Source: Thiohalophilus sp. (lineage in GTDB: Bacteria > Pseudomonadota > Gammaproteobacteria > UBA6429 > Thiohalophilaceae). Taken from it: a stretch of 64,000 nt of DNA. This document shows positions 4,102 through 46,371 of this stretch, in pieces (position 1 is the stretch's first letter; every line of letters begins with the position of its first letter). The notes below the pieces were generated by a model. The model did no database searches. It was not told the origin of the DNA and saw nothing but the letters and a program-made list of their open reading frames with translations. Position numbers and translations under genes: made by a program. The DNA lies in contig NZ_JAXHLN010000003.1 of NCBI RefSeq assembly GCF_034522235.1, forward strand, positions 1,364,001 to 1,428,000. The letters are read 5' to 3'.

Positions 4102-5172
4102 ATGTCATCGAATACCTCCTCACATCCCAAAGGGCGCGGCGCCGGCAGCAATGTTGTCTCACGCTTTGTTGAGCTCAAACGGGAAGCCGTCGATGATGGC
4201 TGGGAACCGGCGGAGCGCACGCCGCTACGCACCGAGCTGTTTACCGATACCAGTCGTACCATCATCAGTTCGAATAACTCCCCGGATGTGCCTTTTACTT
4301 ACTCGATCAATCCCTATAAGGGGTGCGAGCACGGCTGTTGTTACTGTTTTGCCCGGCCTACTCACGCCTATCTGGATCTGTCGCCGGGGCTGGACTTTGA
4401 AAGTAAAATCTTTGCCAAACCCGATGCGGCCGGGCTTCTGACAAAAGAGCTTGGCAAGCACAGTTATGTTCCCAAAGTGATTGCCCTGGGTGCCAATACT
4501 GATGCCTATCAGCCGCTGGAAAGACAGCTGGGTATTACCCGTGAGATCATCCAGGTTTTGAAAGCACACCAGCATCCCGTGTCGATTATTACCAAATCCG
4601 CACTGGTCGAGCGGGATATCGATCTGCTTGCGCCGATGGCCGAAACGGGGCTGGTCAAGGTTTTTATCTCGGTCACCACCCTGGATCGGGCGCTGGGGCG
4701 CCGACTGGAGCCCCGTGCGGCCGCACCGCAACGTCGCCTGGAGACCGTGCGCCGCTTGCGCCAGGCCGGTATCCCGGTCGGGGTGCTGATGGCGCCGATT
4801 ATTCCGGTGCTCAATGATAACGAGATCGAACAGTTGCTGGGCCAGTGTGCCGCGGCCGGCGCCGAATCAGCCAGTTATGTCATTCTGCGTTTACCGCATG
4901 AGATCAAAGATCTTTTTGTTCAGTGGTTGCAGGAACACTACCCCCTCAAGGCCGAGCATGTGATCAGCCGCATCCGCGATCTGCGCGGCGGGCAGGCGTA
5001 TCGCAGCGAATTCGGCGAGCGCATGCGCGGCAGCGGGCAGTATGCCGATCTGATCGCGAAACGGTTCGCGCTGGCCTGCAAAAAACACGGCCTTAACCGG
5101 CGCACTCTGGAACTGGACTGCTCGAAATTCCGGGTTCCGCCCAGAAGCGGGGACCAGATGGGGCTGTTCTGA
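4102..5172 (+). CDS. PA0069-family radical SAM protein
   Basis: A 356-residue radical S-adenosylmethionine protein of the PA0069/Rv2578c group, distantly related to spore photoproduct lyase. The iron-sulfur cluster motif C-x3-C-x2-C is seen in YKGCEHGCCYCFARPTH (about residues 72-88). It is followed by family-specific LDFESKIFAK, GANTDAYQPLE and the (beta/alpha)-barrel strands ending YVILRLPHE. A C-terminal region rich in Arg and Lys (HVISRIRDLRGGQAY) follows. The reaction is not known for this family. The first ATG has no obvious ribosome site, so the start is less secure than the family. The 3' end abuts a long inverted-repeat element shared with the convergent relA. Confidence 0.9.
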   Translation: MSSNTSSHPKGRGAGSNVVSRFVELKREAVDDGWEPAERTPLRTELFTDTSRTIISSNNSPDVPFTYSINPYKGCEHGCCYCFARPTHAYLDLSPGLDFESKIFAKPDAAGLLTKELGKHSYVPKVIALGANTDAYQPLERQLGITREIIQVLKAHQHPVSIITKSALVERDIDLLAPMAETGLVKVFISVTTLDRALGRRLEPRAAAPQRRLETVRRLRQAGIPVGVLMAPIIPVLNDNEIEQLLGQCAAAGAESASYVILRLPHEIKDLFVQWLQEHYPLKAEHVISRIRDLRGGQAYRSEFGERMRGSGQYADLIAKRFALACKKHGLNRRTLELDCSKFRVPPRSGDQMGLF

Positions 5173-8318: not shown

Positions 8319-9011
8319 ATGCAGGATGCCCAACAACAGATGCTCGATACCATCGCGGCCGAGGCGCGCTACACCGCCGACTATACCGGGCGCAGCCGGT
8401 TCAGTGCCGCGGTGATGCAGGCGCTGGCCAGGGTGGATCGGGCGGCGTTTGTGCCGCCCGCCTACCGGGATCGTGCCTATGACAACGGCCCGCTGCCGAT
8501 AGGTGACGGCCAGACCATCTCCCAGCCCTATATCGTGGCATTGATGACCGATCTGCTGGATCTGACGCCCGACAGCGTGGTGCTGGAGATCGGCACCGGC
8601 TCGGGCTATCAGGCGGCGGTACTGGCGCAACTGGCCCGCCAGGTTTACAGCCTGGAGCGATTCTGCACACTGGCCGAGGCGGCGCAGGAGCGGTTTGCGC
8701 AACTGAGTTACACCAATATCGAAGTGCGTTGTGCCAACGGTTATAACGGCTGGCGGGAGAAAGCTCCGTTCGATGGGATCATTGTCACCGCCGCGGCCCG
8801 GGAAATTCCACCGGCACTGGTGGAACAGCTCAAACCGGGCGGCCGGCTGGTGATCCCGGTTGGCCCGCCCTATGGTTATCAGGTATTAATGATCGTCAGC
8901 CGCGATGCGGCCGGCAAAATCGAGCACCGCAAGGTGCTCGGGGTCGCCTTTGTGCCCCTCATTGATGACGGGATCGAGAATGGCGACGATGCCGGGCGTT
9001 CGGCGCCGTAG
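8319..9011 (+). CDS. pcm: protein-L-isoaspartate O-methyltransferase
   Basis: Repairs aged proteins by methylating L-isoaspartyl residues with S-adenosylmethionine, releasing S-adenosylhomocysteine. Family marks: the substrate loop GDGQTISQPYIVALMTDLL (about residues 67-85) and AdoMet-binding motif VVLEIGTGSGYQAAVLA, followed by VYSLER (motif II) and the KPGGRLVIPVG post-motif. At 230 residues it is slightly longer than the 208 of E. coli, with an extra N-terminal helix and an acidic tail. It follows the ahcY relic by 12 bases; before that gene decayed the pair would have coupled a methyltransferase with removal of its inhibitory product. Confidence 0.95.
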   Translation: MQDAQQQMLDTIAAEARYTADYTGRSRFSAAVMQALARVDRAAFVPPAYRDRAYDNGPLPIGDGQTISQPYIVALMTDLLDLTPDSVVLEIGTGSGYQAAVLAQLARQVYSLERFCTLAEAAQERFAQLSYTNIEVRCANGYNGWREKAPFDGIIVTAAAREIPPALVEQLKPGGRLVIPVGPPYGYQVLMIVSRDAAGKIEHRKVLGVAFVPLIDDGIENGDDAGRSAP

Positions 9012-15233: not shown

Positions 15234-15255
15234 AACCCCGGCTAAAGGTGTGTCG

Positions 15256-16197
15256 ATGCAAAACCGCAACTTTTCCCTGACCCGGCGACGCCTGTTACAA
15301 CAGGTTGTTGCATTGGCTCTGGGTTTTAACCTGAACTTGCCGCGCACGGGGTGGGCCGATACATCGCAAAAAATTCTGCGGCGAATACCTTCTAATAATG
15401 AAACTGTCCCGGCGATCGGCATGGGAACCTGGCTGACCTTTGGTATCGATCCGGATGACGCTTCGCAAATGCGCGTGCGGGAGAAAATTCTGCATACCTT
15501 TTTCGAACTGGGCGGGGAGCTGATCGACTCCTCACCCATGTACGGTTCGGCGGAGGAGGTCGTTGGAAAATGTCTGGCGCGCCTTGACGAGACGCCCGAT
15601 CTGTTTGCCGCCACCAAGGTCTGGACCTCGGGCTGGCGCGCCGGTGTGCGGCAGATGGAGCGCTCGCGTGTGCTCTGGGGTGTCGAGCGAGTGGATCTGA
15701 TGCAGGTGCATAATCTGCTCGACTGGGAGACGCACCTGGCAACGCTCAAGGAGTGGAAAGCGGCGGGACGGATTCGTTATCTGGGCGTGACCACGTCGCA
15801 CGGGCGGCGTCATTCGGAACTGGCCAGGATTATGGAAACGGAGCCGCTCGATTTTGTGCAGCTGACCTACAATCTGCTAGACCGGGAGGCGGAGCAACAT
15901 CTGTTGCCGCTGGCACAGGAGCGTGGCATTGCCGTGCTGGCCAACCGGCCGTTTCAGGGCGGCGGGTTGTTCAGTCGTTTTGCTTCACAACCGTTACCGG
16001 ACTGGGCATCGGCGATCGACTGCGAAAACTGGGCCCAGTTTTTCCTCAAATTCATTATTTCGCACCCGGCCATCACCTGTGCGATTCCGGCCACCTCGAA
16101 GGTGGCCCATATGCGCGAGAACATGGGGGCCGGTTACGGACGCCTGCCGGATGCGAAGCTGCGCCGGCGAATGAGCGAGTATGTTCGCGGCCTGTAA
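15256..16197 (+). CDS. Tat-exported aldo/keto reductase
   Basis: A 313-residue aldo/keto reductase with an N-terminal twin-arginine-like signal (LTRRRLLQQVVALALGF) and a likely cleavage site near TGWADT. The body has AKR features: GMGTWLTFG, the catalytic Asp and Tyr in GELIDSSPMYGSAEEVVG, Lys in AATKVWTSG, and QVHN. The C-terminus AIPATSKVAHMRENMGA is the usual cofactor-binding end. Exported AKRs are a minority; folding with cofactor before export fits the Tat route. I chose the ATG at 15256, which has AAGG nine bases upstream, over the GTG at 15250. It follows the adenosyltransferase by 22 bases. Physiological substrate unknown. Confidence 0.87.
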   Translation: MQNRNFSLTRRRLLQQVVALALGFNLNLPRTGWADTSQKILRRIPSNNETVPAIGMGTWLTFGIDPDDASQMRVREKILHTFFELGGELIDSSPMYGSAEEVVGKCLARLDETPDLFAATKVWTSGWRAGVRQMERSRVLWGVERVDLMQVHNLLDWETHLATLKEWKAAGRIRYLGVTTSHGRRHSELARIMETEPLDFVQLTYNLLDREAEQHLLPLAQERGIAVLANRPFQGGGLFSRFASQPLPDWASAIDCENWAQFFLKFIISHPAITCAIPATSKVAHMRENMGAGYGRLPDAKLRRRMSEYVRGL

Positions 16198-16442: not shown

Positions 16443-16723
16443 GGTGCACCTCCTTACTTGGCACTGTGTATCGCCACTATCCCGGATCTAGATCAACACC
16501 CGGCGTCTTTCAAGCCATGTGGCGTCTTGTAGCTAGCGTGTTTGGGGTATCAGATCAAGCGGATTTAAAAACCTGCACCGCAGGTGGCTTTGTTAAGATC
16601 GACGTGTGTTGTTTCACTGATCTCACCAGGGTTGTCTGCTGCATGAACATTATCCAACGACTTGCCGAAGAGCTCGGCGTCAGGCCGGCCCAGATCGAGG
16701 CCACGGTACGTTTACTGGACGAC

Positions 16724-16748
16724 GGGACGACGGGGCGACGGGGCGACG
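16724..16748 (+). repeat. 8-base tandem repeat causing the tex frameshift
   Basis: GGGACGACG (16724-16732) followed by two GGGCGACG units (16733-16748), then GTGCCG. A single unit would restore the normal Tex reading (DDGATVPF). The two extra units add 16 bases and shift the frame by one. Confidence 0.7.
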
Positions 16749-17241
16749 GTGCCGTTTATTGCCCGCTATCGCAAGGAGGCCACTGCCGGCCTCGACGATA
16801 CCCGGTTGCGCCAACTCGACGAGCGTCTGGGCTATTTGCGGGAACTGGAGGATCGCCGTGCCAGCGTCATCGAATCGATTCGCGAACAGGGCAAGCTGAG
16901 CGAGGAGTTGCAGGCAGCCCTGGCGCAGGCCGAGACCAAGACCCGGCTGGAAGATCTTTACGCGCCCTACAAACCCAAACGCCGGACCCGGGCACAGATC
17001 GCGCGCGAAGCCGGACTCGAGCCGTTGCTCGAGGCGCTGCTCGAGGATCCCACGCGGGATCCGTTGCCGCTGGCCGACGCGTATCTCAATCCCGAGGCCG
17101 GGGTGGCGGAAGCCGAAGCGGCGCTGGAAGGGGCCCGGCAGATATTCATGGAGCGCGCCGCCGAGCAGGCGGATCTGGTCGCACAACTGCGCGAATGGCT
17201 CTGGGACAGGGGCCGGCTGGTGGCCAGAGCGCCGAGCAAGA

Positions 17242-17265
17242 GGCGATCCGCATCCGCGGATCGCC
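17242..17265. repeat. Perfect palindrome at the tex deletion junction
   Basis: GGCGATCCGC (17242-17251), loop ATCC, GCGGATCGCC (17256-17265): ten perfect base pairs. It lies exactly where the N-terminal half of Tex is joined to the C-terminal half, and encodes residues without Tex similarity. Confidence 0.75.
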
Positions 17266-18022
17266 AGCAGTTACTCGAGGTGACGCGCCTGGGACCCCGC
17301 GCGTTTGAGCAGGCCGCCGGGTTTTTGCGGATTCGCGACGGCAGCAATCCGCTGGATGCCTCGGCGGTGCATCCCGAAGCCTATCCGGTGGTCGAACGCA
17401 TCCTGCAGGACAGCGGCCGGGATATTCACTCGCTGATCGGCGACAGTGCTTTTCTCAACACGCTGGCGGCCAATGACTATACCGATGATCAGTTTGGTGA
17501 ACCGACGGTGCGCGATATTATCGCCGAGCTGGACAAGCCGGGACGGGATCCGCGCCCCGAGTTCAAGACTGCCAGTTTCAGGGACGGGGTGGAGACCCTC
17601 AGGGATCTGCAACCGGGCATGCTGCTCGAAGGGGTGATCAGCAACGTGACCAACTTCGGGGCCTTTGTCGATATCGGCGTCCACCAGGACGGCCTGGTCC
17701 ACATCTCGGCCCTGGCCGATCGGTTCGTGCGCGATCCCCGCGAGGTGGTCAGGGCCGGTCAGGTGGTCAAGGTCAAGGTAATGGAGGTGGACATTGACCG
17801 CAAGCGGGTGGGATTGTCGATGCGCCTGGCCGATGAGCCCGGCAAGCCGGCGACACCAAAGCCGCGGCAGAGCAAACCCCGGGGCAAGTCCGCGTCTGCC
17901 AAAAAGCCTGCCAGAGCGGACAGCAAACAGGCCAATACCGCTATAGCCGCCGCGTTTGCCAGAGTGAAGGACTCTTCCTGACACTGCTGTCGACAATGGT
18001 CTTGAGAATAATGCCGCGATTG

Positions 18023-31266: not shown

Positions 31267-31920
31267 ATGGCGCATCAGATTACGATGAAGTTTGCGCAGA
31301 CCGACCTGTCAGGCCAACAACGGAAGATTCAACTGCTGGACGATCGCGCGCTGCGGATCCGCGAAAAACGCAATAAACGACAGTGCGAATATAGTATTGA
31401 CCTGTTGGCGCTGGCTCCAGGCAGCCAGCGCCAACTTGCTTTGTCCCGGCCCTGGTTGATGGGGAGTGGACTGACCCTGTTAGGCGTGCTTTTTCTGTTC
31501 TGGTGGTTCCCGCGCTATCTGCCCGACACTGCCGACGGCTATTTACTCCTGACCCTGGTGGGGGGTAGTTTGTTGATAATGGGACAACTCTATCTGTTCT
31601 GGAAATACAGTAGCCGGCAACAGGTTTTCGTGTCCCGACATGCCAACATACCTCTGTTAAAGCTTCAGGTGAATCAACCTTCGCGCAACGAATTTGAACA
31701 ATTTGTCCAGCACCTGGAACAGCGTATCACCAGACTGGCCAATGACTTCGAACTGTCCACGCAACAACAGTTATCCGGCGAACTGCGCATGTTAAGGCGT
31801 CTGAGCAAAAACCGGGTCATCGCTCAGGCTCAATACGCACAGGCCAAGGAGAAACTCTTCGGCCGTTTTGAAGAGTCGTCCGCACCCAATGCCCACTTGC
31901 CTGAAATGGCGGATGCCTGA
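31267..31920 (+). CDS. two-span membrane protein of unknown function
   Basis: A 217-residue protein. Residues 1-58 are soluble (strands with QQRKIQLLDDRALRIREKR), then two hydrophobic segments (about 66-82 and 95-114) in a hairpin, then a cytoplasmic C-terminal part that begins with strands (VFVSRHANIPLLKLQV) and a long helix (FVQHLEQRITRLA). The layout resembles bPH2/YdbT-like membrane proteins. No catalytic motif. GAGAGGATCTT before the ATG is a reasonable ribosome site. Confidence 0.65.
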   Translation: MAHQITMKFAQTDLSGQQRKIQLLDDRALRIREKRNKRQCEYSIDLLALAPGSQRQLALSRPWLMGSGLTLLGVLFLFWWFPRYLPDTADGYLLLTLVGGSLLIMGQLYLFWKYSSRQQVFVSRHANIPLLKLQVNQPSRNEFEQFVQHLEQRITRLANDFELSTQQQLSGELRMLRRLSKNRVIAQAQYAQAKEKLFGRFEESSAPNAHLPEMADA

Positions 31921-44576: not shown

Positions 44577-44672
44577 GAGTATTCCCGTCCGTTTGAAAAT
44601 GATGTTATTAACTTAGCACAGCCGGGCCGGCAATGAGAATCTTCCTGCAGCAGGCCACTTTTCAAACGCTCT

Positions 44673-44950
44673 GGAATAAAACGCGGAGTTCGCAGAGTCG
44701 CAGAGGCGCGGAGAAAATTTGTAAAAGTTGGCAGATATCAGATGGCAGTTGACAGCGGTAGGAGCGGCTGCGCCGCGATTTAAAAGACAGGGTAGGATAC
44801 GCACCACGCACCATCCTTGCGGACAGTGGCAAGGGACGCATAATGAGGCATGCGGACAGGCATTGTTATCTCGGCGGATAGTGGAATCAAGCAAGCAATA
44901 AATTGTTCCTTTGCGTTCTCTGCGACTCTGCGAACTCTGCGTTATTTTTC
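44673..44950. repeat. CGCAGAG inverted-repeat element, copy 4 (longest)
   Basis: Left end GGAATAAAACGCGGAG (44673) followed by CGCAGAGTCGCAGAGGCGCG; right arm 44908-44950, the inverse (CTCTGCGACTCTGCGAACTC, then TGCGTTATTTTTC). The interior of about 190 bases includes a REP-like sequence at 44758-44781. It fills the 397-base gap between the beta-CASP 3' end and the start of gnd; no gene is seen there. Confidence 0.75.
44758..44781. repeat. REP-like sequence inside element copy 4
   Basis: GTAGGAGCGGCTGCGCCGCG, matching the well-known GTAGGAGCGGC...GCCGCGA form of Pseudomonas-type REP sequences. It has its own inner palindrome GCGGC-TGC-GCCGC. Only one clear copy in this window. Confidence 0.55.
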
Positions 44951-44973
44951 GTGTGCGGGAAAAGGGATTAGAT

Positions 44974-46371
44974 CTACAGCTCGATTTTTTCCTTGAAGGC
45001 GGGAAGGTGGGCATTCCAGTCGTATTGTTGCCGGAACTGTTCCTGCAGGATTTCGCGTTTATCCTGTTCGCCGTGCACCAGATAGAGCCTGGGCCGGGGA
45101 TGGAAGTGGCCGGCCCATTCGAGCAGTTGTTGCTGGTCGGCGTGGGCGCTGAACCCGCCAAGGGTATGGATACGGGCTTTGACATTGACCTCGCGACCGA
45201 ACAGCCTGAGCCGTTCTGTCCCGTCGACCAGGGCGCGGCCGGGGGTCCCGGCGGCCTGGAAGCCGACGATGATCAGGTGCGTATTGTTTTTCCAGAGGTT
45301 ATTTTTCAGGTGATGGCTGATGCGTCCGCCGGTACACATGCCACTGCCGGCGATGATAATTGCGCCACCGTGGATCGTGTTGATCTGCATCGACTCCTCG
45401 ACCGTTCGGGTACAGCGCAGATTGGGTAGCCATTCCTCCCAACGATGCCGGACAGTATCGACAAAGGCTTGCGCATCATCGTCGTTGAACAGGTGCAGAT
45501 AGCGAAAATAGAGTTCGCTGGCGGCAATGGCCATCGGGCTGTCGAGAAAAATCTGTTGCTGGGGCAGTCGTCCCTGGCGATGAAACTTGCCCAGCCAGAA
45601 CAGGATCTCCTGGGTGCGCCCGACGGCAAAAGCGGGGATCAGGACATTGCCGCCGGCGTCGGCCGCCGCCTGCAGGGCCTGGTGAAACTCTTCCACCGTC
45701 TCCTCGTAACTACGGTGGTTGCGATCCCCGTAAGTCGATTCAAGCAGCAGGGTATCGGCCTGCTGTAGATATTCGGGGTTCTGTAGCAACGGATGGTGGA
45801 TGTTGCCCAGATCGCCGGAGAAGACCAGTCGCCGGGTGGTGCCGGCATCCTCGACACTGAGCTCCACAATCGCCGAGCCGAGGATATGGCCGGCATCATG
45901 ATACCGGAGCTGGACATCCGGGGTAATCGGGGTGTGCTGCCGGTAGTCGAGGGTCTGGCGCAGCTGCAGGGTGGCCGCGACGTCCTGGTCGGTATACAGC
46001 GGCTCAAGCGGTGTCTTGCCCGCCTTGTGGCGCTGCTTGTTCTCCCACTCGGTGTCTTTCATCTGCAAAAAGGCGGCATCGTGGAGCATAATATCGATGA
46101 GATCGTGGGTTGCGCGGGTCATATAAACGGGACCCCGATAACCTTCCTTGACCAGACGGGGAAGTAAACCACTGTGATCCAGATGGGCATGGGAGAGCAC
46201 CACTGCATCGATCGCATTCACGCTGAACTCAAAGGGCGCCTGATTGGCCTCGTCGGCCCCCCGGCCCTGATGCAGACCACACTCCAGCAGGATAGTAGTC
46301 TTCGCGCTGCGCAGCAGATAGGCCGAGCCGGTGACTTCGCCGGTGGCGCCGAGAAATTGTAAACTTGCCAT
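44974..46371 (-). CDS. MBL/beta-CASP RNA-processing nuclease
   Basis: A 465-residue metallo-beta-lactamase/beta-CASP protein of the KH-less CPSF73/RNase J-like group, expected to be a zinc-dependent RNA exo- or endonuclease. Zinc motif: LSHAHLDHSG (about residues 57-66); further ligands in DAGHILGSA and FSGDLG. Beta-CASP blocks: LIPAFAVGRTQEIL, AGSGMCTGGRISHHL and FQAAGTPGRALVDG, with a final GGFSAHADQQQLL. No signal peptide. Start at 46371 (MASLQFLGATGEV). Confidence 0.9.
   Translation of the reverse strand: MASLQFLGATGEVTGSAYLLRSAKTTILLECGLHQGRGADEANQAPFEFSVNAIDAVVLSHAHLDHSGLLPRLVKEGYRGPVYMTRATHDLIDIMLHDAAFLQMKDTEWENKQRHKAGKTPLEPLYTDQDVAATLQLRQTLDYRQHTPITPDVQLRYHDAGHILGSAIVELSVEDAGTTRRLVFSGDLGNIHHPLLQNPEYLQQADTLLLESTYGDRNHRSYEETVEEFHQALQAAADAGGNVLIPAFAVGRTQEILFWLGKFHRQGRLPQQQIFLDSPMAIAASELYFRYLHLFNDDDAQAFVDTVRHRWEEWLPNLRCTRTVEESMQINTIHGGAIIIAGSGMCTGGRISHHLKNNLWKNNTHLIIVGFQAAGTPGRALVDGTERLRLFGREVNVKARIHTLGGFSAHADQQQLLEWAGHFHPRPRLYLVHGEQDKREILQEQFRQQYDWNAHLPAFKEKIEL

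Follow-up and report, generated by a model that had tools for sequence, protein, structure and literature searches.

A perfect palindrome at a deletion junction in a probable tex pseudogene

The 64-kb stretch of Thiohalophilus sp. DNA analysed here (the window) carries a tex gene from which much of the middle is missing, and a perfect palindrome lies at one of the breaks. This locus is probably an ordinary and recently broken tex pseudogene, shaped by short-homology deletions that left an island of tex between them and by a repeat expansion, with the palindrome as a by-product of the second deletion junction. The surviving pieces, the part of tex from which each comes and the frames in which they lie are established, and no other tex was found. 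The locus would be a clear example of stepwise gene death, through repeat expansion and through deletions that leave an island, and would show how a deletion junction can yield a palindrome without a mobile element.

The tex remnant and its intact counterpart

The genus set consists of two genomes, so the comparison rests on a single reference gene, that of the sole other member (G001). Its tex is intact, 775 codons long, and flanked by the same neighbours in the same order as the tex of the window: upstream lies an aldo-keto reductase-like gene and downstream a CbpA/DnaJ-like one, both named from matches below the NCBIfam cut-offs. Alignment of the two genes reveals three changes, a repeat expansion and two central losses (Table 1), the losses being calculated from the paired window and G001 tex positions 17224-566, 17226-899, 17251-924 and 17259-1597. 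There are at least two deletions, of about 331 and 665 nt net, and their total of 996 nt equals 332 codons, so the frame is open across the gap. The first-pass annotation of this DNA had noted that the central part of Tex is missing, and this is confirmed: the alignment to P. aeruginosa Tex (2oce) breaks off at residue 206 and resumes at 533, and that to G001 Tex breaks off at about codon 189 and resumes at 533. It had also described a single central junction bearing the palindrome. The palindrome is indeed exactly on a deletion, but there are at least two deletions with a surviving tex island between them, so that a single junction is too simple. Either side of tex in G001 there are two intergenic stretches (locus L033, about 1747-1820 and about 4350-4515) with common motifs (GGTATTC..., GAACGCTTAATTTA); these are largely absent from the window and may represent a small dispersed element of G001.

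From the native ATG (16643), just 30 codons lie in the Tex frame. The net 16-nt repeat expansion then displaces the frame, and reading from the ATG ends at 17308. Phase variation by the 8-bp repeat was considered; the YqgF domain, however, is lost with the centre of the gene in any case. Compared with the GCGAG that G001 carries on both sides of junction 1, the window has one different base; shared sequence of at least 5 nt is found at about 1% of random position pairs. Junction 2 has several candidate homologies. In comparison with Tex (PF09371, PF22706, PF16921, PF17674, PF00575; P. aeruginosa PA5201, 2oce/3bzc), the N-terminal, HHH_9 and S1 parts are clearly homologous. Unlike the P. aeruginosa protein, the remnant is without Tex_YqgF and most of the central region, and its frame is broken near the start.

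Table 1. Features of the tex remnant, in window coordinates
Feature	Position	Strand	Remarks
tex remnant (probable pseudogene), native ATG to native stop	16643..17981	+	net 996 nt lost centrally and 16 nt gained near start, relative to G001
First 30 Tex codons, native frame	16643..16732	+	match to residues 1-30, 90% identity
8-bp tandem repeat (GGACGACG-type), 4.1 copies	16717..16749	+	net 16 nt longer than G001; frame shifted
N-terminal Tex segment, second frame	16749..17222	+	158 codons, 87% identical to G001 Tex
Deletion junction 1	17224..17226	+	net loss about 331 nt; GCGAG on both sides in G001
Retained native tex island	17226..17251	+	out of frame; last 10 nt are the palindrome's left arm
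Palindrome	17242..17265	.	arms 17242-17251 and 17256-17265; loop ATCC 17252-17255
ATCCGCG, the only stretch without a single assigned source; deletion junction 2	17252..17258	+	net loss about 665 nt
C-terminal Tex segment, native frame	17259..17981	+	HHH_9 1-70/70, S1 3-74/74; first 7 nt end the right arm

Does the organism have a normal tex, the contig being wrong here through an assembly or gap-filling artefact? This would suit the confinement of all three lesions to one gene and the good conservation of its remains. It would also suit an otherwise sound neighbourhood: of 38 neighbouring ORFs, which we picked from 85, 34 matched 80 kb of G001, 33 of these 34 with at least 96% of their length aligned. 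Yet the missing piece of tex was not found elsewhere in the assembly, the whole genome is in 3 contigs, and there is no N in the window. A second tex or a further central region was likewise not found in these contigs, which are rated 100% complete; the other own-genome matches in the search for a second full-length tex were to proteins that carry S1 and to a single short stretch (query 495-553). The lesions themselves show the signatures of common mutations, namely an expanded 8-bp repeat and short shared sequence, and Tex_YqgF is missing from many relatives. An artefact is thus weighed as unlikely, and we infer a real mutation rather than an assembly error, together with slippage at microhomologies and templated filling.

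The palindrome and the origin of its bases

The palindrome, GGCGATCCGC-ATCC-GCGGATCGCC at 17242-17265, has two perfectly matching 10-nt arms around a 4-nt loop and lies at the central tex deletion, as the first-pass annotation had stated. A second copy with up to 3 mismatches was not found within the window. With exact arms and any loop of 0-12 nt, the palindrome is present at one place in the genome (3.06 Mb) and in none of the 39 other genomes among the 40 searched; it occurs in 6 of 127 loci, all six being this one place. The exact 24-mer is absent from the viral contigs searched. Two questions raised in the first-pass annotation, whether the palindrome recurs in the genome and whether the normal tex genes of relatives contain it, are thereby answered in the negative for the genomes searched.

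The window has 2 inverted repeats of this kind (arms of at least 10 nt, loop of at most 12 nt), where 12 Markov simulations gave 0.58 on average, and 80 kb of G001 contains 13. They are common enough that the palindrome by itself is unremarkable, and the DNA folding of 17200-17300 is ordinary (z -1.54; 13 of 200 shuffles as good). Its position on a deletion junction, unlike the palindrome alone, is remarkable: in a comparison picked after the site had been seen, a palindrome spanned 5 of 12,000 simulated deletion junctions (2 of 6,000 without filler, 3 of 6,000 when 7 nt of filler were included). Elsewhere in the window a stronger inverted repeat, with 13-nt arms and a 6-nt loop, is found at 31404-31435 and is possibly a terminator. 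In G001, three stem-loops recur together about 1,500 nt on (locus L127, 15351-15549 and 16850-17049), as if a segment had been duplicated.

The statement that the codons of the palindrome match no Tex sequence has to be withdrawn. Positions 17226-17251 are nt 899-924 of G001 tex (codons 300-308, encoding ESAEEEAIR), with 24 of 26 bases identical, read in another frame. The ungapped score of this island is 20, compared with 18 for the best and 13 for the next of 156 control stretches of the window. It stands in the correct order between the left and right tex flanks, of which the left is identical to G001 tex at 20 of 22 bases, at a place separate from that of the island. The island ends with the complete left arm, and the contiguous native 3' part begins with GATCGCC, the final 7 nt of the right arm; tex accounts for 17 of the 20 arm bases. 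The ATCCGCG in between may come from a tandem ATCCGC duplication, from a jump to TCCGCATCC (9/9 match at tex nt 1071) or to GATCCGCG at tex nt 1125, in part from a diverged native codon (GCG for GTC), or from a self-templated copy of the left arm.

It had also been proposed that a small mobile element inserted and then left with the middle of tex. A palindrome at the junction is what such a hop could leave behind, but the arms are largely tex sequence, and excision of a MITE or other element is already contradicted by the want of further copies, in this genome, in the 39 relatives or, as the exact 24-mer, in the viral contigs. We give this origin next to no chance.

A possible route to the junction

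In the history that we consider probable, two, possibly three, short-homology deletions would have removed about 1 kb from the middle of tex, leaving 26 nt between them as the island, and a separate expansion of the 8-bp tandem repeat would have shifted the frame near the start. Junction 2 would have brought the native left arm up to the native end of the right arm. The loop and the rest of the right arm would then be native variants, or would have been filled by template switching on the newly facing inverted arms, which would amount to hairpin or quasipalindrome correction during replication. The rarity of palindromes at the simulated junctions makes a foldback or template-switch step plausible. 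A hairpin or foldback origin, as suggested in the first-pass annotation, is consistent with the palindrome being exactly on the deletion.

In another version, both deletions and the palindrome would have arisen together, in one replication accident with serial template switching. After a jump to the island, the arm there would have been copied by foldback, and the copied GATCGCC would have re-annealed on the downstream GATCGCC. We hold this version to be rather improbable.

Deletion by microhomology or replication slippage, with loss between short direct repeats, is familiar from pseudogenes. The tex locus resembles such cases in the native island left behind and in the frameshift elsewhere in the same gene, and may resemble them in a loss between short repeats; it differs in having at one junction a perfect palindrome, rare in simulated junctions. 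A second possible likeness is with template switching at quasipalindromes, in which short inverted arms become perfect, apparently one copied from the other. Mutation of this type is described for E. coli (PMC7202029), and homogenisation of arms for yeast genes (PMC8604942). The tex palindrome may be of this kind: in the tex of G001, the one same-genus relative compared, GGCGATTCGC and GTCGATCGCC are about 670 nt apart, and in the window the arms are perfect and adjacent. Unlike those cases, the tex palindrome is on a large multi-step deletion, and the templating here is only putative.

The remaining open frame and the loss of tex

A 439-codon frame is open from 16662 to 17981. The first-pass annotation read it as a possible mini-Tex that keeps the N-terminal and S1 parts. 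The S1 RNA-binding domain is present (PF00575 3-74/74, 74.1 bits), and the frame further contains Tex_N 27-74/75, 71 of 178 positions of Tex_central_region, 25 of 65 of HHH_3 and HHH_9 1-70/70; the greater part of the central region is lost, and with it the beginning of the HHH_3 motif. The N-terminal part cannot be claimed for it as proposed, the native ATG frame being lost after codon 30. Since its first codon is an out-of-frame TTG, the 439-codon frame is no clean mini-Tex. Between the frameshift and the net central loss, no single frame passes from the native start through all domains.

Might a 439-codon or shorter protein with N-terminal, HHH_9 and S1 parts nevertheless be expressed and functional? 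The open frame, a net central loss that is a multiple of three and the dN/dS of the kept parts all speak for it. A loss in frame has, however, a 1-in-3 chance of arising anyway. The native start is out of frame with the 439-codon frame after codon 30, translation would require an internal TTG or GTG start, the retained island lies in the wrong frame, and Tex_YqgF is gone along with much of the central region and of HHH_3. We find a functional mini-Tex very doubtful, and the case is a warning against taking every open frame that spans a deletion for a mini-protein.

How conserved are the remains? The dN/dS of the tex parts of the window against G001 is 0.236 (0.25 with a second alignment). Amino-acid changes number 20 on the window branch and 16 on the sibling branch, with 22 ambiguous. 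Of 206 columns that do not vary in 6 family tex proteins, 11 differ in the window and 9 in the sibling. So little extra change on the window branch would fit a recent loss, and would fit an assembly error equally; the conserved remains are no demonstration of selection on a short protein. Only 4 of the 34 matched ORFs have a higher dN/dS than the tex parts: 28-1410 (2.456), 44613-45185 (0.739), 8319-9011 (0.258) and 15250-16197 (0.243), the first two of which we take to be shadow frames. This hints at relaxed selection. Among 404 control tex pairs, chosen by a synonymous distance of 0.15-0.8 and many of them likely saturated, dN/dS ranges from 0.026 to 0.582; this range spans the value for the window, and relaxation is therefore not claimed. 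ORF 28-1410 has almost no synonymous difference from G001 at 78% protein identity, and is probably a shadow frame that overlaps a real gene or lies opposite one.

Tex_YqgF (PF16921) was not found in the whole genome by a search that was positive in 18 of 39 relatives. With the present genome counted as a negative, the domain is found in only 18 of 40 genomes, some of them incomplete, so tex is often absent. Across the genome contigs there are at least 80 Tex loci; best-segment identities are 55-73% among the matches listed, which leaves no near relative among these. Thirteen family members are rated at least 95% complete, the present genome and G001 left out. Four of the 13 (G005, G014, G019 and G021) are without Tex_YqgF and match the remnant only at the level of the S1 domain (best E 1e-14 to 1e-15), and a fifth (G020) has only a C-terminal tex piece, at a contig end. 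Tex thus seems to have been lost repeatedly in the family, in a survey that rests on draft genomes. Tex is a transcription accessory factor of which a P. aeruginosa deletion mutant has been made (PMC13340108), so that tex is dispensable there.
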